Assembly: GCA_029259595.1 (NCBI GenBank)
Contig: JAJDEW010000168.1
Location: 1-64,000, forward strand
Length of the DNA stretch: 64,000 nt
Direction of reading: 5' to 3'
Source: Planctomycetota bacterium
GTDB taxonomy: Bacteria; Planctomycetota; UBA1135; GCA-002686595
Part shown: positions 2,624-14,988 of the stretch, piece after piece
Layout of the letters: each line of letters begins with the position of its first letter
How positions within the stretch are numbered: the stretch's first letter is position 1
Program-made: the position numbers and the translations under genes
The notes under the pieces: generated by a model
Told to the model about the DNA's origin: nothing
The model's input: only the letters and a program-made list of their open reading frames with translations
Database searches by the model: none

Positions 2624-4165
2624 ATGAAGCGTCTCCTCTCCGCCGTCAAGCGCCTCGTCCCTTCCCTGTCGGTCGCCACGGCCCTGGCCGTGCCGCTCGG
2701 CGCGACCTGGTCGATCGTCGCCGTCAACACGAGGACCGGCGAGGTCGTGGTCGCCTCCGCCACGTGCCTCACGAACTTCGACCTGCGTGCCAACCTGCCG
2801 GTGATCGTTGTGGGGCGCGGAGCGGGTGCGGCCCAATCCGCGATCGATGTCTCCGGGCGGGCGCGGCTGGAGATGTACGACGGCTTCTTGCGCGACCTGA
2901 CTCCCGACGAGATCTTCGAGAACATCGATGCGGCCTTGAACGTCTTCAACCGCCAGTACGGCATCGTCTCGATGATCGGGGACTCGGTCTCCTTCAGCGG
3001 GAATCAGGTCGGCATCGGCAAGGGGCAGGTGACAGGCGAGATCGACGGGATCAAGTACGCGATCCAGGGCAACGTCCTGACCGCCCAGGGTGTCGTCCTT
3101 GCGGCCGAGCGCTTCTTCCGCGAAGCGGACCCGTCCGTCGACCTCGCGACGCGGATCATGATCGGAATGGAGCGCGCGCGCCTCTTGGGTGGCGACGGCC
3201 GTTGCTCGTGCCTGACCGGTTCGCCGATCTCCTGCGGCGCTCCGCCGCCGAGCTTCGAGAAGGCGGCCCACGTCGGGTTCCTCGTGCTCGCACGCATCGG
3301 AGACACCGACGGGATCTGCAACGCGAACGGCTGCGCCACCGGTGACTACTACCTGAACCTGAACGTCATCGGGGGTACCGCAGATCCCGACCCCGTCTTT
3401 CAACTGCAGGACATGTTCGACGCCTGGCGTGCGGAGCGCGCCGGAAGTCCGGATCACCTCTTGTCCACCGTCAGCGCCTCGCACGACTCGCTCCCCGCCG
3501 ACGGGCGCTCGACGGCGAACTACGTCGTGCGCCTCGTCGATCTCGAGGGCAACGCCCTGACCGGGGGTGGTGCTGCGGTCGCGGTCGAGGTTCGAGGGGC
3601 GAACGGCCTCGTCAATGTGGGACCCGTCGTCGACAACGGCGACGGCACGTATTCGTTCGACGTTCAGGGAGGCGCGAATCCGGGCATCGTGAGCCTCGTG
3701 ATCACGGCCGAAGATGCGGTGCAGAAGGCGACGCTCTATCCCTTCCCCGAACTGCGCCTCGAGCCGGTCGCTCCGCTGCATTGCGGCGTCGACGCGGTGA
3801 CGGCTCTCGGCGGTCGCTCGGTTCCGTTCACGCTGGACGAGGCCGATGCGAGCGGAGCCGCCTACCTGCTCGTCGCGAGCGGCTCGGGCACCGTACCGGG
3901 AGTCGCCTTCGGACCTCACCTCGTGCCGCTGAACTTCGACGCCCTGACGCTGCGTTCGATCGCCCGCGCCGGGCAGGGGGCCTTTGCGCAGTCCGCCGGC
4001 CGCCTCGATGGCTCCGGACGGGCGCACGTCGTCCTGCGCATGCCACCCGGCGCGCTGGTGAACTGGCTCGGCCGCATCGACTGGGCGGCGATCACCTTCG
4101 GTGGCGGACTCGGCGGATCGTTGCGCGTGAGCGGTCCCGTTGGCTTCGACGTCCTCGACTCATGA
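2624..4165 (+). CDS. Secreted DUF1028 (Ntn-hydrolase-like) protein, paralog 1 of 4
   Basis: 513 residues from ATG 2624, which begins a normal signal peptide (MKRLLSAVKR then a hydrophobic stretch to PLGA). The longer frame to 2570 lacks this. After Ala27 comes T28-WSIVAV, the start of the DUF1028 domain (about residues 28-270, including VASATC, VIVVGRGAGAAQ, YAIQGN and GGDGRCSC). DUF1028 is of unknown function and is grouped with Ntn hydrolases, where an N-terminal Thr, Ser or Cys is the nucleophile. Residues about 285-385 form an Ig-like beta domain (PADGRS... GDGTYSFDV). The last 130 form a beta-rich tail shared with other secreted proteins here. Six cysteines are conserved in all four paralogs. 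The stop overlaps the next ATG by 4 bases. Confidence 0.85.
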   Translation: MKRLLSAVKRLVPSLSVATALAVPLGATWSIVAVNTRTGEVVVASATCLTNFDLRANLPVIVVGRGAGAAQSAIDVSGRARLEMYDGFLRDLTPDEIFENIDAALNVFNRQYGIVSMIGDSVSFSGNQVGIGKGQVTGEIDGIKYAIQGNVLTAQGVVLAAERFFREADPSVDLATRIMIGMERARLLGGDGRCSCLTGSPISCGAPPPSFEKAAHVGFLVLARIGDTDGICNANGCATGDYYLNLNVIGGTADPDPVFQLQDMFDAWRAERAGSPDHLLSTVSASHDSLPADGRSTANYVVRLVDLEGNALTGGGAAVAVEVRGANGLVNVGPVVDNGDGTYSFDVQGGANPGIVSLVITAEDAVQKATLYPFPELRLEPVAPLHCGVDAVTALGGRSVPFTLDEADASGAAYLLVASGSGTVPGVAFGPHLVPLNFDALTLRSIARAGQGAFAQSAGRLDGSGRAHVVLRMPPGALVNWLGRIDWAAITFGGGLGGSLRVSGPVGFDVLDS

Positions 4166-5724
4166 GCACCACCCCGACCTCGTCGCGTTTCACCGGACGC
4201 CGGATCCTCGCGCGGATGAAGCGTCCGCTCCGTTCGGTCGGCAGCGCCCTGTTCGTCGCGCTCGCGAGCGCACTGCCGCTTGGCGCCACGTGGTCCGTCG
4301 TGGCGGTCAACCTGCGGACGCGCGAGGTCGTGGTCGCGTCGGCGAGCTGCGTCTTTCAGGACCTGCGCGTTCAGGTTCCCGTCATCGTCGTCGGCCGTGG
4401 CGGCGGAGCCACGCAGTACATCCCCGACGCGCTCGCCCGCAACAAGATCATCATTCGCGATGGTTTCCTGGCGGGCTCGACGCCGCAGCAGATCCTCGCT
4501 CGGATCCAGACCGACGGTCCCGGCAGCCTGGTCGTGCGGCAGATCGGGATCGCGTCGATCGACGGCTTTCCGGTCGGGTATACGGGCTTCTCGGTGGATG
4601 CCGGCAAGGCGCACGTGAACGGGATCGCCGGTGACTGGGCCTACGCGATTCAGGGCAATTCGCTGACGGGTCCCGAGGTCATCCTCAACGCGGAAGCGGC
4701 CTTCCTCGCGGCCGAGGGCGACGGGGCCCAGCGCGTCATGGCGGCGATGGAGGGAGCGCGCGTGCTCGGCGGAGACGGACGCTGTTCCTGCGGCTTCGTC
4801 GATCCGACGGCCTGTGGCGTGCCGCCCGACGATTTCGAGAAGGCCGCCACCTCCGCCTTCCTCATGGTCGCGCGTATCGGGGATACCGACGGGGACTGCG
4901 GTCAGCCCGGTTGCGCGACCGGCGACTACTACCTCAACATTCGCAGCGACACCGGCCGTGTTCCACGCCTGGCCGAGCAGGTCGCGGCCTTTCGAGCGGC
5001 GCATCTGGGGCGCCCCGACCACTACACTTCGACCGCTCGCCTCGATCGCGACGCGCTCCCCGCCGACGGTCAAACGGCGGGCCAGCTCGTCGTCCGGCTC
5101 GCGGACATCGCAGGGGAGGCCCTGACGAAGGGCGGCGCGACCGTCAGCGTCGCGGTGGCGGAGGGTCCGGCCGACCTCGTGCTCGGCCCGGTGCTCGATC
5201 GCGGTGACGGGAGCTACGCCTTCGAGGTCCGCGCCGGAACGCTCGTCGGCCTCGCGCGCTTCGAGGTCGTCGCGGACGATGGAGTCGTGCGGGCCACGCT
5301 CTACCCGCGCCCCGAATTGCGCCTGGATCCGGTGACACCGCTGCACGTCGGCGTGGACACCATCTCGGCCACGAGCGGGGCCACGCTCCCGTTCACGCTC
5401 CAGGACGCCGCGGGGGCTGGTTCCGCCTTCCTGCTCGTCGCGAGCGGCTCCGGAACCGAACCTGGCCTCGTGGTCGGGCCGCACCACCTGCCCTTGAATC
5501 CCGACGCCCTGTTGCTGCGCAGCCTGAACCGCGCCGGTACGGGAGCCTTCCTCGGTTCGATCGGCCGGCTCGACGGCACGGGTCGCGCCGAGACGACGCT
5601 ACGGCTCCCGCCAGGAGCGCTGGTCAACTGGATCGGTCGCCTGGACTGGGCTTCGATCCGCTTCGGCGGCTCGCTCACGAACCTCTCGATCGACGGCCCC
5701 GTGGGCGCCGTCGTCGGAGACTGA
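4162..5724 (+). CDS. Secreted DUF1028 (Ntn-hydrolase-like) protein, paralog 2 of 4
   Basis: 520 residues from ATG 4162, whose ATGA overlaps the stop of paralog 1 and suggests coupled translation. An alternative ATG at 4216 (MKRPLRSVGS, 502 residues) would give a more compact signal peptide and aligns with the start of paralog 1. Neither has a good ribosome site. After PLGA comes T43-WSVVAVNLRTREVVVASASC. The layout matches paralog 1: DUF1028 domain, Ig-like domain (GDGSYAFEV) and a beta-rich tail (SGSGTEPGLVVGPHHLPLN). The Cys set is conserved (RCSC, ACGVPP, DCGQPGC). The substrate is unknown and the location is probably periplasm or cell surface. Confidence 0.85.
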   Translation: MSTTPTSSRFTGRRILARMKRPLRSVGSALFVALASALPLGATWSVVAVNLRTREVVVASASCVFQDLRVQVPVIVVGRGGGATQYIPDALARNKIIIRDGFLAGSTPQQILARIQTDGPGSLVVRQIGIASIDGFPVGYTGFSVDAGKAHVNGIAGDWAYAIQGNSLTGPEVILNAEAAFLAAEGDGAQRVMAAMEGARVLGGDGRCSCGFVDPTACGVPPDDFEKAATSAFLMVARIGDTDGDCGQPGCATGDYYLNIRSDTGRVPRLAEQVAAFRAAHLGRPDHYTSTARLDRDALPADGQTAGQLVVRLADIAGEALTKGGATVSVAVAEGPADLVLGPVLDRGDGSYAFEVRAGTLVGLARFEVVADDGVVRATLYPRPELRLDPVTPLHVGVDTISATSGATLPFTLQDAAGAGSAFLLVASGSGTEPGLVVGPHHLPLNPDALLLRSLNRAGTGAFLGSIGRLDGTGRAETTLRLPPGALVNWIGRLDWASIRFGGSLTNLSIDGPVGAVVGD

Positions 5725-5741
5725 GGAGCGGTCCGCGTACG

Positions 5742-5785
5742 GTCTACCCCGTTGTTCCCCGTGGGCGTGGAGACCGGGGTAGACT
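5742..5785 (+). promoter_or_regulatory. Inverted repeat overlapping a putative -10 (TAGACT) upstream of paralog 3
   Basis: gtctaccccg at 5742-5751 is perfectly repeated in inverse at 5775-5784, with 23 bases between. The right arm contains the first five bases of TAGACT (5780-5785), which ends 6 bases before ATG 5792. This reads as a leaderless promoter with a dyad that a regulator could bind. The 67-base gap between paralogs 2 and 3 is the only real break in the four-gene array, so this site could allow separate expression of the last two genes. Confidence 0.45.
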
Positions 5786-5791
5786 TCGGTC

Positions 5792-7339
5792 ATGGATTCT
5801 CTTTCGCGCCCCGCCCGCCTGTATCGACTCGTGACTTCGACCCTCGTCGCCGCTTCGCTGGTGCTGCCCCTGAACGCGACTTGGTCGATCGTCGCCGTCG
5901 ACACCGCGACCGGAGAGGTCGCCGTCGCCTCGGCCACCTGCCTGACGAACTTCGACTTGCAGCACGCCACACCCGTCATCGTCGTGGGGAGGGGTGCCGG
6001 CGCCGCCCAAGCCGCCGTGGACGTGTCGGGCGTCAACCGCGGGATCATGTTCGATGGCTTCCGCGCCGGCTGGACGCCGCGCGACATCTTCGACGAGATC
6101 CGGGCCAACGGCGCGGGCTCGGTGCAGAGCAAGCAGTTCGGAATCGTCGGCATGGAAGGCAACCCGATCTCCTTCTCGGGGATCCAGAACGGTGACGCGG
6201 CCTCGGGTCTGGTCGGACGCCGTGGCACGATCATCTACGCGATCCAGGGCAACGTGCTGGCGGGCGATGCGGTCGTCACGGCGGCTCGGGACGCTTTCAT
6301 CGCGGGCGAAGTCGACTTGAGTCAGCGGATGATGGCGGCGATGGAAGCGGCGCGCGCGTTCGGCGGCGACGGCCGTTGCTCGTGTGGCCCGGACGCCGAC
6401 AGCTGCGGCGCACCGCCGCAGAACGGCTTCACGAAGACCGCGCACGTCGGCTATGTCCTGGTCGCGCGCATCGGGGACACGGACGGGGTCTGCAACTCGT
6501 CGCTCGGGTGCGCGAACGGGAACTACTACCTCGCGGTCAACGTCGTCGGTGGCGCGCTCTCGCCCGATCCCGTCTTCACGCTGCAGAGCGAATACGACGC
6601 CTGGCGCTCGAACCTGGCCGGCCGACCGGACCACCTCCGTTCCAGCGCCCTGCCCGCGGTCGACTCCCTTCCGGCCGACGGTCTCACCGCGACCACCGTG
6701 GTCGTCGAGCTGGTCGACCTCGAGGGCGTTCCACTCGGCTTCGGCGGTGCCGATGTCCGGGTCGCGTTGGCCGAGGGCTCGCCCGACGTCGCGCTGGGGC
6801 CCGTGCAGGACCGGGGCGACGGAACGTACGCCTTCGGTGTCGTCGCGGGCAACGAGACGGGAACCGCGCGCTTCGTCGTCACGGCGAACGACGGGATCGC
6901 GAAAGCTACGCTGTTTCCCCATGCCGAGCTTCGGATCGACACCATCCAACCCGTTCACCTCGGCGTCGACGACCTGCGCGCGATCGACGGTGGCCGGCTC
7001 CCCTTCGTGCTGAACGATCCCGAGGCGGCCGAAGCGGCTTTCATACTGATCGCGAGTGGTTCGGGGACCGACCCGGGCGTCGTGATCGGTCCACACCTCG
7101 TTCCCCTCAACTTCGACGCGCTGACGCTGCGTAGCGTGCAACGCGCCGGCGAAGGCGCCTTCCGGGACTCGGTCGGCAGGCTCGATGCCTCCGGGCGCGC
7201 GCAAGCCACCCTGAACATGCCGCCGGGCGTGCTCGTGAACTGGATCGGACGCATCGATTGGGCGGCGATTGCCTTCGGTGGAGCCCTGGGCGGTTCGCTG
7301 CGGGTCCACGGCCCTGTCGGTTTCGACGTCGCGCACTGA
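5792..7339 (+). CDS. Secreted DUF1028 (Ntn-hydrolase-like) protein, paralog 3 of 4
   Basis: 515 residues. A signal peptide (hydrophobic TLVAASLVLPLNA) is followed by T30-WSIVAVDTATGEVAVASATC. The DUF1028 core, the Ig-like middle domain (about residues 285-385, GDGTYAFGV) and the beta-rich tail (LPFVLNDPEAAEAAFILIAS) are all present. It is the paralog most like number 1, sharing CLTNFDL and the QGNVL segment. The Cys pattern is the same (RCSCGPDADSCGAPP, VCNSSLGC). Its own putative leaderless promoter lies just upstream, and paralog 4 follows after 6 bases. As with all four, no activity can be assigned from sequence alone. Confidence 0.86.
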   Translation: MDSLSRPARLYRLVTSTLVAASLVLPLNATWSIVAVDTATGEVAVASATCLTNFDLQHATPVIVVGRGAGAAQAAVDVSGVNRGIMFDGFRAGWTPRDIFDEIRANGAGSVQSKQFGIVGMEGNPISFSGIQNGDAASGLVGRRGTIIYAIQGNVLAGDAVVTAARDAFIAGEVDLSQRMMAAMEAARAFGGDGRCSCGPDADSCGAPPQNGFTKTAHVGYVLVARIGDTDGVCNSSLGCANGNYYLAVNVVGGALSPDPVFTLQSEYDAWRSNLAGRPDHLRSSALPAVDSLPADGLTATTVVVELVDLEGVPLGFGGADVRVALAEGSPDVALGPVQDRGDGTYAFGVVAGNETGTARFVVTANDGIAKATLFPHAELRIDTIQPVHLGVDDLRAIDGGRLPFVLNDPEAAEAAFILIASGSGTDPGVVIGPHLVPLNFDALTLRSVQRAGEGAFRDSVGRLDASGRAQATLNMPPGVLVNWIGRIDWAAIAFGGALGGSLRVHGPVGFDVAH

Positions 7340-7345
7340 CCCGCC

Positions 7346-8875
7346 ATGCTACGACGCCTCTTCGGACGCACGCTGTTGGTCGCGACGCTCGTCGCGGCTC
7401 CGCTCGGAGCGACCTGGTCGATCGTCGCGGTCAACCTCGCGACCGGCGAGGTCGCCGTGGCTTCGGCGACGTGCATTCCCGGCGACGACATTCGCGCCGC
7501 CGTTCCGATCCTGGTGGTCGGTCGGGGAGCGGGAGCCGCGCAGTACGCCGTGGATCCGCTCGCGCGCAACCGTCGGATCATGTTCGATGGCTTCTCGAAC
7601 GGCGAGACGCCGCGCATGATCTTCGACGAGATCCGTGCGAACGGTCCCGGCAGCCTGCAGCTGCGCCAGTTCGGGATCGTCGGCTTGAACGGACCGCCAT
7701 TGACGTTCACGGGCAACTTCGCCGACCCGGGCCGCGAAGAGGTCGTCGGTCAGTCGGGGGACTGGATCTGGGCCATCCAAGGCAATTCGCTCTCGGGTCC
7801 GGAGGTGATCTTCGCGGCTCAGGAGGCCTTTCGAAGCACGGACGGGACGATGGCCGAGCGCCTGCTCGCGGGCATGCAAGCGGCGCGCGCCCTGGGTGGC
7901 GACGGCCGTTGCTCGTGCGACGCCTTCGCGCCGGATTCGTGTGGCGTACCACCGCCGGGCTTCACGAAGTCGGCCCACGTCGCCCAACTCGCCGTAGCGC
8001 GACGGGGGGACACCGACGGCGACTGCACGCCGGCCGGGTGCTTGACCGGAACCTACTACCTGAACCTGAACGTGATCGGCGGGGGCGGTTCGCCGGATCC
8101 GATCCTGTCCCTGGCCGACGGCGTCGCGAGCTGGCGCGCGGGTCTGCTCGGCCGGCCCGACCATCTGACCTCGCGGGCCGTGTTCGCCGCGGAGCTCCTG
8201 CCCGCCGACGGGCTGCGCGCGACCGAGCTCGTGATCGCATTGGCGGACCTCGAGGGGACGCCGCTCGTCACGGGCGGAGCACGGGTCGACGTGGCCGTCC
8301 ATCCCGAGGACGACGCGGAGCTCGTGAGCCTCGGCACCGTGGTCGATCGTGGTGACGGCACCTACGCGGTCGAGGTCCGTGCCGGGACCCGTCCGGGAGC
8401 GGTCCGCTTCGTCGTGACCGCTGACGACGGCGTCGCGCGGGCGACGCTTGCTCCGTGGCCCATCCTGCGTCTTGCGCCGCCGACGCCGCTCTTCCTCGGC
8501 ACCGAAGCGGTCTCCGCGCTCGCCGGCTCGAAGTTGCCCTTCACGCTCGCCGAGGACGACGCGGCCGGCGCCGCCTACATCCTGCTCGCGAGCGGCTCCG
8601 GCACCGAGCCAGGGCGAACGCTCGGAACGCACCACGTACCCCTGAACTTCGATGCCCTGACCCTGCGCAGCGTCGAGCGCGCAGGCGTCGGCGCTTTCTT
8701 CGGCTCGATCGGACGCCTCGATGCGAGCGGACGCGCGCAACCCGAGTTGCACATTCCACCCGGCGCCCTGGTCAACTGGCCCGGACGTATCGAGTGGGCC
8801 GCCGTCAGCTTCGGTGGTGCGCTCGGCGCATCCGCACGCGTCGCGGGCCCGGTCGGCTTCGACGTCACGCACTGA
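7346..8875 (+). CDS. Secreted DUF1028 (Ntn-hydrolase-like) protein, paralog 4 of 4
   Basis: 509 residues starting 6 bases after paralog 3, so the two are probably on one message. It has a short signal peptide (MLRRLFGRTLLVATLVAAPLGA) and then T23-WSIVAVNLATGEVAVASATC. Order of parts: DUF1028 domain, Ig-like domain (GDGTYAVEVRAG, residues about 285-385) and the beta-rich C-terminal segment (YILLASGSGTEPGRTLG). It diverges from paralogs 1 and 3 in the loop after the first Cys (IPGDD instead of LTNFD), a change it shares in kind with paralog 2. Cysteines are conserved. This ends the array; the next gene is metabolic. Confidence 0.86.
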   Translation: MLRRLFGRTLLVATLVAAPLGATWSIVAVNLATGEVAVASATCIPGDDIRAAVPILVVGRGAGAAQYAVDPLARNRRIMFDGFSNGETPRMIFDEIRANGPGSLQLRQFGIVGLNGPPLTFTGNFADPGREEVVGQSGDWIWAIQGNSLSGPEVIFAAQEAFRSTDGTMAERLLAGMQAARALGGDGRCSCDAFAPDSCGVPPPGFTKSAHVAQLAVARRGDTDGDCTPAGCLTGTYYLNLNVIGGGGSPDPILSLADGVASWRAGLLGRPDHLTSRAVFAAELLPADGLRATELVIALADLEGTPLVTGGARVDVAVHPEDDAELVSLGTVVDRGDGTYAVEVRAGTRPGAVRFVVTADDGVARATLAPWPILRLAPPTPLFLGTEAVSALAGSKLPFTLAEDDAAGAAYILLASGSGTEPGRTLGTHHVPLNFDALTLRSVERAGVGAFFGSIGRLDASGRAQPELHIPPGALVNWPGRIEWAAVSFGGALGASARVAGPVGFDVTH

Positions 8876-9018
8876 GTTCCGACCGCCGCCCTGGAGCACC
8901 GCGGCCGATGTCCCGAGCTCCGGGCTACGTCGCGAGCTCCGGGCCTTCCTCGCGGACTCCGAACCGGGCTCCGGCGAACAGCGCTCCTCGACCCTGGGTC
9001 CGTGGCCCGACCGCGGAG

Positions 9019-9024
9019 TAGACT
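9019..9024 (+). promoter_or_regulatory. Putative -10 element (TAGACT) 7 bases before dapE
   Basis: TAGACT ends at 9024 and the ATG is at 9032. The surrounding sequence is very like the one before the gene at 5792 (gacc, then G-rich, then gtagact, then cgg, then tcATGGAT). This supports ATG 9032 over the upstream GTG at 9002, which would lie before the promoter. Confidence 0.5.
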
Positions 9025-9031
9025 GCGGCTC

Positions 9032-10051
9032 ATGGATCGCACCCTCGACACTCTCCTGGACTGGATCGCCATCGATTCGGTCACGGGTCACGAAGACGAC
9101 TACGGCGACGCGCTGTCGCGCACCCTGGAAGGGATGGGCTTCGGCGTCGAGCGCCAGGAGCTCGCGCCCGGGCGCTCGAACGTGCTGGCGCGCGGCAAGG
9201 GCGACCCGCTGGTGGTCTTCTGCACGCACCTCGACACCGTGCCGCCCTGGTTCGGCCCCGAGCGCAAGGGCAAGGTCATTCACGGGCGCGGATCGTGCGA
9301 TGCGAAGGGGCCGGCGCTGGCCATGATCGAGGCTGTGCGCGCACTGCTCGCCGGGGGCGAAGACCGCGTCGGCTTCCTCTTCACGGTCGGCGAAGAGACC
9401 GACGGCGCCGGTGCGCAGCTCGCGAACGCGAAGCTGGCCGAGCCCTGGCATCCGCGCTTTACGATCGTGGGCGAACCGACGGACAACGCCTTCATTCGCG
9501 GTGGCAAGGGCGTGTACAAGTGCATGCTGCGCGCGACGGGTGTCGCGGGCCACAGCTCCCAGCCGATCGGCCCCTCGGCGGTGCACGAGCTGGTCGGAGC
9601 CATCCAGCGCATGCTGGACGATGACTGGGGCACGCACCCTGTCGTCGGGCAGGGGACCATCAACTTCGGCCTGATCGAGGGCGGCCTGGCGCCGAACGTC
9701 GTGGCGCCCAGCGCCTGGGCCGAGGTCTTGGTTCGTGCCGTGGAAGCGCCCGCGACGGTCGAGGCGCGCGTTCGCCGACACCTCGGCGCGAACGTCGTCC
9801 TGGAACCGACCAAGGGCTACGGTCCGGTCGAGTTCGTCGTCCCCGCGGGCCAGGAGGGACCGGTCGTGGCCTTCGGGACCGATGCGCCGTACCTCCCGAA
9901 GTGGGGCAGGCCCCTGCTGTACGGTCCCGGCAGTATCCGGGATGCGCACACGGCGCACGAGAAGCTCGAGGAGGACGAGTTCCTGCAAGCCATCGGCGAC
10001 TACGCCCGGACGGCGAAGGAGCTCCTCGCGCGCATCGACGCGGAGGGTTGA
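9032..10051 (+). CDS. dapE: M20 family metallopeptidase, probable succinyl-diaminopimelate desuccinylase
   Basis: 339 residues. M20 zinc enzymes of the DapE/ArgE type hydrolyse an N-acyl group from an amino acid using two metals. The expected ligands are visible: H66 and D68 in THLDT, D90 in GRGSCDAKG, the E121-E122 pair in VGEETDG, a Glu in VGEPTD, and a late His in AHEKLEEDE. A dimerisation insert (GVAGHSSQP) is present. Next to DapD the most likely substrate is N-succinyl-LL-diaminopimelate, giving LL-diaminopimelate for lysine and peptidoglycan. An acetylornithine or acetyl-lysine deacetylase role cannot be excluded by sequence. dapD starts 4 bases after this stop. The start was chosen from the promoter spacing. 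Confidence 0.8.
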   Translation: MDRTLDTLLDWIAIDSVTGHEDDYGDALSRTLEGMGFGVERQELAPGRSNVLARGKGDPLVVFCTHLDTVPPWFGPERKGKVIHGRGSCDAKGPALAMIEAVRALLAGGEDRVGFLFTVGEETDGAGAQLANAKLAEPWHPRFTIVGEPTDNAFIRGGKGVYKCMLRATGVAGHSSQPIGPSAVHELVGAIQRMLDDDWGTHPVVGQGTINFGLIEGGLAPNVVAPSAWAEVLVRAVEAPATVEARVRRHLGANVVLEPTKGYGPVEFVVPAGQEGPVVAFGTDAPYLPKWGRPLLYGPGSIRDAHTAHEKLEEDEFLQAIGDYARTAKELLARIDAEG

Positions 10052-10055
10052 GGCG

Positions 10056-10823
10056 ATGCTCTCGGGAGCTGAGTTGCTCGACGCGCTCGAATCCGGCGCG
10101 CTGCGCGTGGCCGAGCGCGAGGGAGACGCGTGGGTGGTCGACGGCGACGTGAAGGAGGCGATCCTCGGCCTCTTTCGGACGTCGGAGGTCGTCTCCATGG
10201 ACGCGGCCGGACCGCTGTGGCCGTTTCGCGACAAGGCGCCACTGACGGTGCGACGCTTCGGGCCGGACGACGGAGTTCGGCTCGTTCCCGGTGGCTCTGC
10301 GGTCCGGCGCGGAGCCCATGTCGGCCGCGGCGTCGTCCTGATGCCGCCCTGCTACGTCAACATCGGAGCCTGGGTCGGCGCCGGCAGCATGATCGACAGC
10401 CACGCGCTGGTCGGTTCCTGCGCCCAGATCGGTACGGGCGTGCACGTCTCCGCCGGGGCGCAAATCGGTGGCGTGCTCGAGCCGGTTGGTGCGCGCCCCG
10501 TGATCGTCGAAGACGATTGTCTGGTCGGCGGCTTGGCAGGACTGTTCGAGGGGGTGCGCCTTCGGCGTGGCGCCGTCGTCGCCGCCGGTGTGGTCCTGAC
10601 GGCGACCACGCCGGTCTTCGACCTGGTGCACGAACGCGAGCTACGCGGGACGCGCGACGCTCCGCTCGAGATTCCCGAGAACGCCGTCGTCGTCCCCGGA
10701 ACCCGCCCCGTGCGCGGGGCCTTCGGCGAGCAACGCGGCCTGGGCCAGGCCTGCGCCTTGATCGTGAAGATCCGCGACGCCTCGACCGATCGAGCGACCG
10801 CGCTGGAAGACGCCCTGCGTTGA
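10056..10823 (+). CDS. dapD: 2,3,4,5-tetrahydropyridine-2,6-dicarboxylate N-succinyltransferase
   Basis: 255 residues, close to the usual length of DapD. It has an N-terminal helical part, then a left-handed beta-helix of hexapeptide repeats (about residues 85-195: VRRGAHVGRGVVLMPPCYVN, IGAWVGAGSMIDSHALVGSC, QIGTGVHVSAGAQIGG). The MIDSHALVGSCAQIG and VEDDCLVGG stretches are typical of the succinyl-CoA pocket in this family. The enzyme transfers succinate from succinyl-CoA to tetrahydrodipicolinate in lysine and DAP synthesis; it is cytoplasmic and usually trimeric. Together with the preceding DapE it supports the succinylase route. The true start is ATG 10056; the same frame is open far upstream but inside dapE. 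Confidence 0.9.
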   Translation: MLSGAELLDALESGALRVAEREGDAWVVDGDVKEAILGLFRTSEVVSMDAAGPLWPFRDKAPLTVRRFGPDDGVRLVPGGSAVRRGAHVGRGVVLMPPCYVNIGAWVGAGSMIDSHALVGSCAQIGTGVHVSAGAQIGGVLEPVGARPVIVEDDCLVGGLAGLFEGVRLRRGAVVAAGVVLTATTPVFDLVHERELRGTRDAPLEIPENAVVVPGTRPVRGAFGEQRGLGQACALIVKIRDASTDRATALEDALR

Positions 10824-12966: not shown

Positions 12967-14988
12967 TCAGGCCTCGGCGCGGGCTTCCTGCGCGGCCTCG
13001 ACGACCGCGTCGACCGTGAAGCCCAGCTGACGGAAGAGGGTGCCTCCCGGGGCCGAAGCTCCGAAGCGGTCGAGGCCGAGCGTCCGTCCGGCGTCCGTCG
13101 TGAAGCGTTCCCAGCCGAAGGTCGAGCCGGCTTCGATCGCGACTCGCGCGCGCACTCCACGTGGCAGCACGGCCTCTTGCCAAGCCGCATCCTGCTCGCG
13201 AAAGAGCTCCTGGGACGGCATCGACACCACGCGGGTCGGGACCTTGTCCGCCTCGAGGCGTGCCTGGGCTTCGAGGGCGAGGTGAACCTCGCTGCCCGTC
13301 GCGATCAAGATGACCTCCGGCGCGTCGCCGGCGGCTTCGGACAGGACATAGGCGCCACGGGCGACGCCTGCGGCCGGACCGAGGACCGAGCGATCGAAAG
13401 CTGCGAGACCCTGGCGACTGAGCACGAGCGCCGTCGGACGGTTCTTGGACGACAGGGCGATGCGCCAGGCCTCGACGGTCTCCGTCGGATCGGCCGGGCG
13501 GAGGACGAGCAGGTTCGGAACCGCGCGCAGGCTGGCGAGGTGCTCGACCGGCTGGTGCGTCGGACCGTCCTCGCCCAAGCCGATCGAGTCGTGCGTGAAC
13601 ACGAAGGTGACCGGCAGGTGGTTCATGGCCGCGAGTCGGATCGCGGGCCGCATGTAGTCGGAGAAGACGAAGAAGGTCGCCGTGAACGTGCGCGCGCCGC
13701 CGTGGTAGGCGATGCCGTTCGCGATGGCGCCCATCGCGTGCTCGCGGACACCGTAGTGGATGTTGCGGCCCGCTCCGGTGTGACCGTCGAACGAGCCCAG
13801 ATCGGTGAGCGCTGTCATGGTCGAACAAGACAGGTCCGCGTCGCCACCGAAGAACCAGGGGATGGTCTTCGCGATCGCGTTCATGGTCTGCCCGCTGGCG
13901 ACGCGCGTCGCGACCTTCTCGCCCGGGGCATACGTCGGGAGCTCGGCATCCCAGCCGGAGGGCAGCTCGCCGGAGAAGGACAGGCGCCGCTCGGCCTCGA
14001 GCGCCGGATAGCTGCGGGCCCAGGACTTCAGGCGTTGCTTCCAGGCGCCGTGGGCCGCTTCACCGCGCTGGCGGGCGGCGTGGAAGTGCTCGCGGGCCTC
14101 GTCGGGAACGAAGAAGCTGCCCTCGTGGTTCCAGGCCAGGTTCTTCTTCGTCGCGGCGACCTCGTCGTCACCGAGCGGCGAGCCGTGCGACTTGGAGGAA
14201 CCGGCCTTGTTCGGCGAGCCGTAACCGATCGTCGTCTTGACGATGATGAGCGACGGGCGCTCGGAGTCGGCCTTGGCCGCCGTGATCGCGGCATCGATCC
14301 CGTCGAGGTCCGTGTCGCCGTCCGCGACCGTTTGAACGTGCCAACCGTAGCTCTCGTAGCGCTTCGCCACGTCCTCGGTGAAGTGCAGCGAGTTCGGGCC
14401 GTCGAGCGAGACGTCGTTCGCGTCGTACAGGCAGATCAGCCTGCCGAGCCCCAGGTGTCCCGCCAGCGACGCGGCCTCGGCCGAGAGCCCCTCCATGAGG
14501 TCGCCGTCCGAGACGAGGCCGTACGTGTAGTGGTCGACGACGACTTCGTCGGCGCGGTTGAAGCGGTTCGCCAGGCGCCGCTCTGCGATCGCCATGCCCA
14601 CGACGTTGGCGCTGCCCTGGCCGAGCGGGCCGGTCGTGGCCTCGACGCCCGGGGTCAGGCCGAACTCCGGGTGCCCCGGCGTCTTCGCATTCCACTGCCG
14701 GAAGTCCTTCAGGTCATCGAGCGACAGGTCGTACTCGTACAGGTGGAGCAGCGCGTACAGGAGCATGCTCCCGTGTCCGGCCGAAAGGACGAATCGATCC
14801 CGGTCGAACCAGTGCGGCGCCTTCGGGTCGAAGTTCAGGTGCCGTTGCCAGAGGACATAGGCCATCGGCGCTGCGCCGAGCGGAAGGCCGGGATGCCCCG
14901 AGTTGGCTTTCTGCACCGCGTCGATGGCGAGGGTGCGGATCGTGTTGACGCAGAGCTGGTCGATCGAAGCCACGTGGGTCGTGGTCAT
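12967..14988 (-). CDS. tkt: Transketolase
   Basis: 673 residues, the normal length. Transketolase moves two-carbon units between sugar phosphates using thiamine diphosphate in the non-oxidative pentose phosphate pathway. Signs: the N-terminal [20 protein letters not shown] motif, the TPP/Mg site GDGDLMEG-like ([20 protein letters not shown] with DAND after it), the pyrimidine-binding middle domain ([20 protein letters not shown], where the Glu activates the cofactor) and the C-terminal domain ([14 protein letters not shown]). The start was set at ATG 14988 because the frame upstream to 15150 has no protein-like content. The 5' region is long: a TATGCT-type -10 on the minus strand near 15128 would leave a leader of roughly 130 bases. 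Confidence 0.95.

Follow-up and report, generated by a model that had tools for sequence, protein, structure and literature searches.

A tandem array of secreted DUF1028 proteins with a candidate nucleophilic threonine at the predicted signal-peptidase site

Introduction

The closest structurally described relative of the proteins reported here is SPO2555 (PDB 2imh), a DUF1028 (PF06267) protein that SCOPe places in the Ntn subfamily d.153.1.7, with an N-terminal Thr (PMC9140057). The same review finds that 2imh strongly resembles the proteasome subfamily and describes autocleavage as the rule in the Ntn-hydrolase superfamily (PMC9140057). A DUF1028 structure has been on record since 2006, and the family is widespread in bacteria and archaea, with matches on 316 plasmid records covering 64 organism first names. 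Our literature search returned no paper naming DUF1028 (COG3342, PF06267) and no reported activity for any member. An earlier note on this DNA remarked that DUF1028 has no known function, which is true of its activity but not of its fold class, already known (PMC9140057).

SPO2555 belongs to the same Pfam family and fold as the proteins encoded in the window (the entire 64,000-nucleotide stretch of DNA analyzed), and the Thr, Gln44, GN and GG motifs are shared or nearly so. Unlike the array proteins, it is a single domain without a signal peptide, Cys-rich insert, Ig domain or C-terminal module, and its crystallized chain has residues ahead of the Thr. The 20S proteasome beta subunits and HslV, Thr Ntn-hydrolases of PF00227, resemble the array in their N-terminal Thr nucleophile, which in our proteins is predicted. 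However, Pfam scans gave no PF00227 match to the window proteins, and the array chains appear to be exported and multidomain, with no sign of a ring or ATPase partner. Proteasome and HslV profiles matched 1 of 26 genomes of relatives, and weakly.

Penicillin V acylase and bile salt hydrolase do not split a long precursor; loss of Met, or of a signal peptide in the Gram-negative enzymes, is enough to expose the nucleophile. They use a Cys instead of a Thr nucleophile and form a different family. On plasmids, RidA-DUF1028-ArgE groups place DUF1028 beside an M20-type deacylase, as in the window. However, the plasmid DUF1028 is cytosolic and has no Ig or tail domains, whereas the planctomycete M20 gene pairs with dapD and may belong to the lysine pathway.

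Results

Four tandem genes encode secreted DUF1028 proteins

The array comprises four intact ORFs lying head to tail, separated by 50, 67 and 6 nt (Table 1). As the earlier note had proposed, all four encode secreted DUF1028 paralogs with an Ig-like domain, each with a predicted signal peptide and the corresponding Pfam matches; their lengths are 502-515 aa, not 509-520 residues. DUF1028 scores 62-88 bits across the copies (Pfam cut-off 26.2) and Invasin_D3 (PF09134), an invasin-type Ig domain, scores 37-46 bits (cut-off 33). NCBIfam and PHROGs searches of the array proteins gave nothing useful. Pairwise identity is 52-58% over the full length, or 47-58% for DUF1028, 48-58% for the Ig domain and 58-67% for the C-terminal part. 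A fifth paralog lies on a different contig of the same genome, in which we found no full-length canonical DUF1028.

The same architecture is found again in dozens of planctomycete genomes, so the array is not a product of chance. Every named relative with a phylum given belongs to Planctomycetota, including isolate Poly30 and the cultured Pla86 and Pla163, each of which carries one copy. No sigma-70-type promoter or terminator pattern was found inside the array, although this absence carries little weight in this organism. Directly upstream (224-2464) lies a gene for a 746-residue protein with four carboxypeptidase-regulatory-like stretches, with a GC content of 0.55, lower than the rest of the window.

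Table 1. Coordinates in the window of the array genes, their parts and the conserved neighbors
Feature	Position	Strand	Basis
Copy 1, secreted DUF1028 protein, 513 aa	2624..4165	+	ORF; Pfam DUF1028 62.4 bits, Invasin_D3 46.2 bits
Copy 1 predicted signal peptide (...VPLGA-TWS)	2624..2704	+	(-3,-1) rule
Copy 1 predicted mature Thr1, candidate nucleophile	2705..2707	+	Profile position 1 of PF06267
Copy 2, secreted DUF1028 protein, 502 aa	4216..5724	+	ORF; Pfam DUF1028 63.9 bits, Invasin_D3 38.5 bits
Copy 2 predicted signal peptide (...LPLGA-TWS)	4216..4287	+	Thr1 codon at 4288
Copy 3, secreted DUF1028 protein, 515 aa	5792..7339	+	ORF; Pfam
Copy 3 predicted signal peptide (...LPLNA-TWS)	5792..5878	+	Thr1 codon at 5879
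Copy 4, secreted DUF1028 protein, 509 aa	7346..8875	+	ORF; Pfam; AlphaFold2 model
Copy 4 predicted signal peptide (...APLGA-TWS)	7346..7411	+	Thr1 codon at 7412
Copy 4 DUF1028 / Ntn-type domain, mature residues 1-245	7412..8146	+	AlphaFold2 model, match to 2imh
Copy 4 Cys-rich insert, mature residues 166-213 (C167, C169, C177, C205, C210)	7907..8050	+	Absent from canonical DUF1028
Copy 4 Ig-like domain (Invasin_D3)	8168..8428	+	Pfam
Ig-like domain, copies 1-3	3461-3715, 5023-5271, 6656-6898	+	Pfam
Copy 4 C-terminal module, common to unrelated exported proteins	8465..8866	+	
C-terminal module, copies 1-3	3752-4153, 5317-5709, 6932-7330	+	
M20 family deacylase/peptidase (DapE/ArgE-like), conserved neighbor	9002..10051	+	Pfam M20; synteny
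DapD (tetrahydrodipicolinate N-succinyltransferase)	10056..10823	+	NF008808 271.7 bits, cut-off 204; 4 nt after M20 gene

The N-terminal domain resembles a DUF1028 Ntn fold

In the array proteins, the Pfam match covers only positions 1-158 of the 193 in the PF06267 profile. We built an AlphaFold2 model of mature copy 4 with 53 sequences (pLDDT 94.8, pTM 0.86). Its best PDB match in Foldseek is 2imh, itself a DUF1028 protein (E 1.8e-9, TM-score 0.75-0.77 by target, 241 columns), at 22% identity. Together with this match, the way strands and helices follow one another in the model points to an alpha-beta-beta-alpha sandwich. It had been suggested that the N-terminal 240 residues constitute DUF1028. 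The model bears this out, aligning about 240 columns with 2imh, but Pfam places only about 166 residues, because the Cys-rich insert interrupts the family pattern.

To examine conservation, we used 123 secreted homologues gathered through patterns elsewhere in the protein or through the profile; they are mutually related, and counts among them are not independent. T1, C21, Q44, G124, G162, G163, D164, R197 and all six cysteines are invariant (123/123), and N125 is present in 118 of the 123. The array copies all keep T1, Q44, GN124-125, GGD162-164 and the six cysteines, so none of the four looks decayed. The cysteines occupy the places first noted in the array, and three disulfides among them are plausible. 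T1, Q44, GN and GG(D/E) also occur in canonical DUF1028 proteins, nearly all of which keep the T1, Q44, GN and GG positions. Counting against our overall proposal, the DLRVDD motif of the canonical family is absent from the secreted form.

The conserved threonine coincides with a predicted signal-peptidase site

The first position of the PF06267 profile is the Thr of a TWS motif, preceded in the four copies by PLGA or PLNA at the end of the signal peptide. Among the secreted homologues, TWS or TWG starts at the predicted cleavage site in 123/123, with the Thr invariant, and the preceding residue is A, S or G in 119 of 122. These Thr counts exclude rows whose profile match starts after position 3, including one frame-damaged copy. 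A strict AxA or VxA motif falls at the A-T bond in 72% of 118 homologues, and no other offset between -10 and +7 exceeds 22%. Counting against this assignment, T-x-S at mature positions 1-3 fits the loose cleavage rule too. Because the predicted signal-peptidase site lies exactly before the Thr, export itself should expose the candidate nucleophile, and autocatalytic cleavage of a precursor appears unnecessary in secreted DUF1028, where signal peptidase would do.

Canonical members present the same Thr in other ways. The start codon immediately precedes it in nine of 15 plasmid-borne, cytosolic-type homologues (locus L184 was read by eye), and some other canonical proteins have leaders of 4-8 residues before it. 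In planctomycete canonical DUF1028 proteins (L006-L011, L211-L235), the Thr often sits well behind the lipobox of a lipoprotein-like leader and is preceded by VA, a possible self-cleavage site. One such homologue, L013, has a lipoprotein-like leader and no Thr at that position. Judging from these leaders, removal of Met and signal peptidase could each expose the Thr, and the lipoprotein-like and short-leader group would need self-cleavage or another step. This group is the main soft spot of our proposal: if the Thr is not exposed there, it may not be the nucleophile.

Unrelated exported proteins carry the same C-terminal module

We found no support for the idea that the beta-rich tail belongs to a design specific to DUF1028. 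It is a generic module: the last ~130 residues of the array proteins recur in at least 10 further genes of the source genome, 0-31 residues from the end, and the carriers are unrelated exported proteins (a subtilase, a metallophosphatase, FG-GAP and haem-motif proteins). The Pla86 genome (G016) contains 80 matches. Neither the array proteins nor the other carriers scanned have a Pfam match in this region. Given its presence on so many unrelated exported proteins, the module probably serves the lineage as a domain for sorting or attachment. In relatives, the tail beyond the Ig domain is swapped while the N-terminal domain is kept.

The array is old and its copies have diverged

A tree of the family, built as the earlier note had advised to tell recent from old duplication, recovers a single clade (support 97) that unites the window copies with the fifth paralog, one further homologue and members of another genus's five-gene array. 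Within it, copies 2 and 4 form a sister pair (support 98), and copy 3 joins a sequence of the other genus (support 93). Fourfold silent sites are only 38-48% identical among the copies, which means that they are saturated. Other multi-copy secreted sets do exist: tandem sets of two to five DUF1028 genes occur in 8 of 37 family genomes, the window's included, and pairs arose separately in other branches of the tree. Taken together, the tree, the saturated silent sites and the recurrence show that duplication is recurrent, old and retained.

We rejected recent amplification, given the saturated silent sites and the interleaving of the copies with those of another genus. Gene conversion was also considered and rejected: we found no conversion tracts, and the longest identical run between copies is 26 nt. 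In the array of the other genus (L035, ~13400-13560, minus strand), one of the five copies loses its frame just after TWS, either as a pseudogene or through an assembly error.

The DUF1028 genes occupy a conserved locus

We called neighboring genes with a codon-position filter against antisense ORFs in high-GC DNA. In 16 genomes of the family, including the window's, DUF1028 genes share their strand with an M20 gene, and the other side of the DUF1028 genes often holds carboxyltransferase, biotin carboxylase and biotin carrier genes. The conserved same-strand locus (9002-10823 in the window; L035-L164) reads carboxyltransferase, biotin carboxylase, biotin carrier, one to five DUF1028 genes, M20 and dapD. 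Given its position beside dapD, the M20 gene may simply serve lysine synthesis and not be a partner of DUF1028. We rejected a functional link between DUF1028 and lysine synthesis, since synteny alone does not prove shared function.

Elsewhere, canonical DUF1028 genes neighbor ABC transporters (some of the dipeptide type), a gamma-glutamyltransferase-family gene and RidA/ArgE genes, all of which fit amide or peptide substrates. The RidA-DUF1028-ArgE groups occur on proteobacterial plasmids (L175, L178, L179, L181), including one of E. coli, and resemble an uncharacterized small-molecule pathway. DUF1028 also lies beside RidA on a Klebsiella plasmid.

Discussion

We propose that the array encodes divergent threonine Ntn-amidohydrolases that act outside the cytoplasm and owe their activation to signal peptidase, a reading to which we assign a probability of about 0.6. 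We infer the cleavage, catalysis, disulfides, location and substrates from computed features: the domain architecture, the conserved residues, the match to a solved fold, the position of the Thr at the predicted cleavage site, the age of the array, the recurrence of such arrays and the conserved locus. An early guess of extracellular amidase or peptidase activity gains strength from the link to Ntn-hydrolases and the Thr at the signal-peptide site.

According to this model, the pre-protein would be inactive in the cytoplasm, its Thr1 still bonded to the signal peptide. After Sec export, type I signal peptidase would cut between A and TWS, making Thr1 the mature N-terminus, and the free amino group and hydroxyl of Thr1 could then attack an amide bond. 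Q44, G124-N125 and G162-G163-D164, common to canonical DUF1028, are likely to form the rest of the active site. The Cys-rich insert, probably closed by disulfides, would stabilize the domain outside the cytoplasm. The Ig-like domain may act as a spacer or binding module, and the C-terminal module would send or attach the protein to the same place as the lineage's other exported proteins. The four copies, an old set, have diverged in their catalytic domains, and the most likely outcome is that each came to favor its own small peptide or N-acyl-amide substrates.

The same features could come from surface or adhesive proteins whose function lies with the Ig and C-terminal domains, the Ntn-like fold being only a dead scaffold. 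The Ig domain does match the invasin/intimin type, and the C-terminal module is also found on structural-looking FG-GAP proteins. However, a dead scaffold should lose T1 somewhere, and T1, Q44, G124, GGD and R197 are invariant in 123/123; moreover, it is the tail past the Ig domain that relatives exchange and the N-terminal domain that they retain. We therefore consider a non-catalytic role unlikely. A less probable explanation still is that Thr1 is exposed by self-cleavage, the A-T bond being an autoprocessing site instead of a signal-peptidase site. Autocleavage is described as the superfamily rule (PMC9140057), and in lipoprotein-type and short-leader DUF1028 proteins the Thr follows A, S, G or N with no signal-peptidase I site there. 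In the secreted type, however, this bond is precisely where a canonical signal peptide stops, and signal peptidase suffices.

The number of copies could also reflect gene dosage, the array merely raising the amount of one enzyme, and all four do share the same architecture and every predicted active-site residue. Dosage arrays are usually near-identical. These copies, by contrast, are 52-58% identical, with saturated silent sites and no conversion tracts, and copy 3 clusters with a sequence of another genus (93% support), which makes this explanation quite improbable. Between the dose need and the divergent specificities first offered for the array, its age and the greater divergence of the catalytic (DUF1028) part than of the C-terminal part favor specificity and disfavor dose.

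More broadly, and more tentatively than for the array itself, secreted planctomycete DUF1028 proteins might form a family of export-activated Thr Ntn-hydrolases, signal peptidase replacing self-cleavage. Its members would have expanded into long-standing tandem sets that act on distinct amide substrates outside the cytoplasm, and a C-terminal sorting domain particular to the lineage would deliver them.

The class of the DUF1028 fold as Ntn was already known; what is new is the predicted signal-peptidase site exactly before the Thr. From this pattern a precise prediction follows for an orphan fold, namely that export switches the enzyme on and a T1A substitution kills activity. If true, secretion rather than self-cleavage would supply the activating step, a clean example of such coupling. 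The C-terminal module, in turn, points to an undescribed route of delivery or attachment in a poorly known planctomycete lineage. For DUF1028, a family without an assigned activity, our analysis offers a concrete and testable job, probably that of an amide-cutting enzyme.
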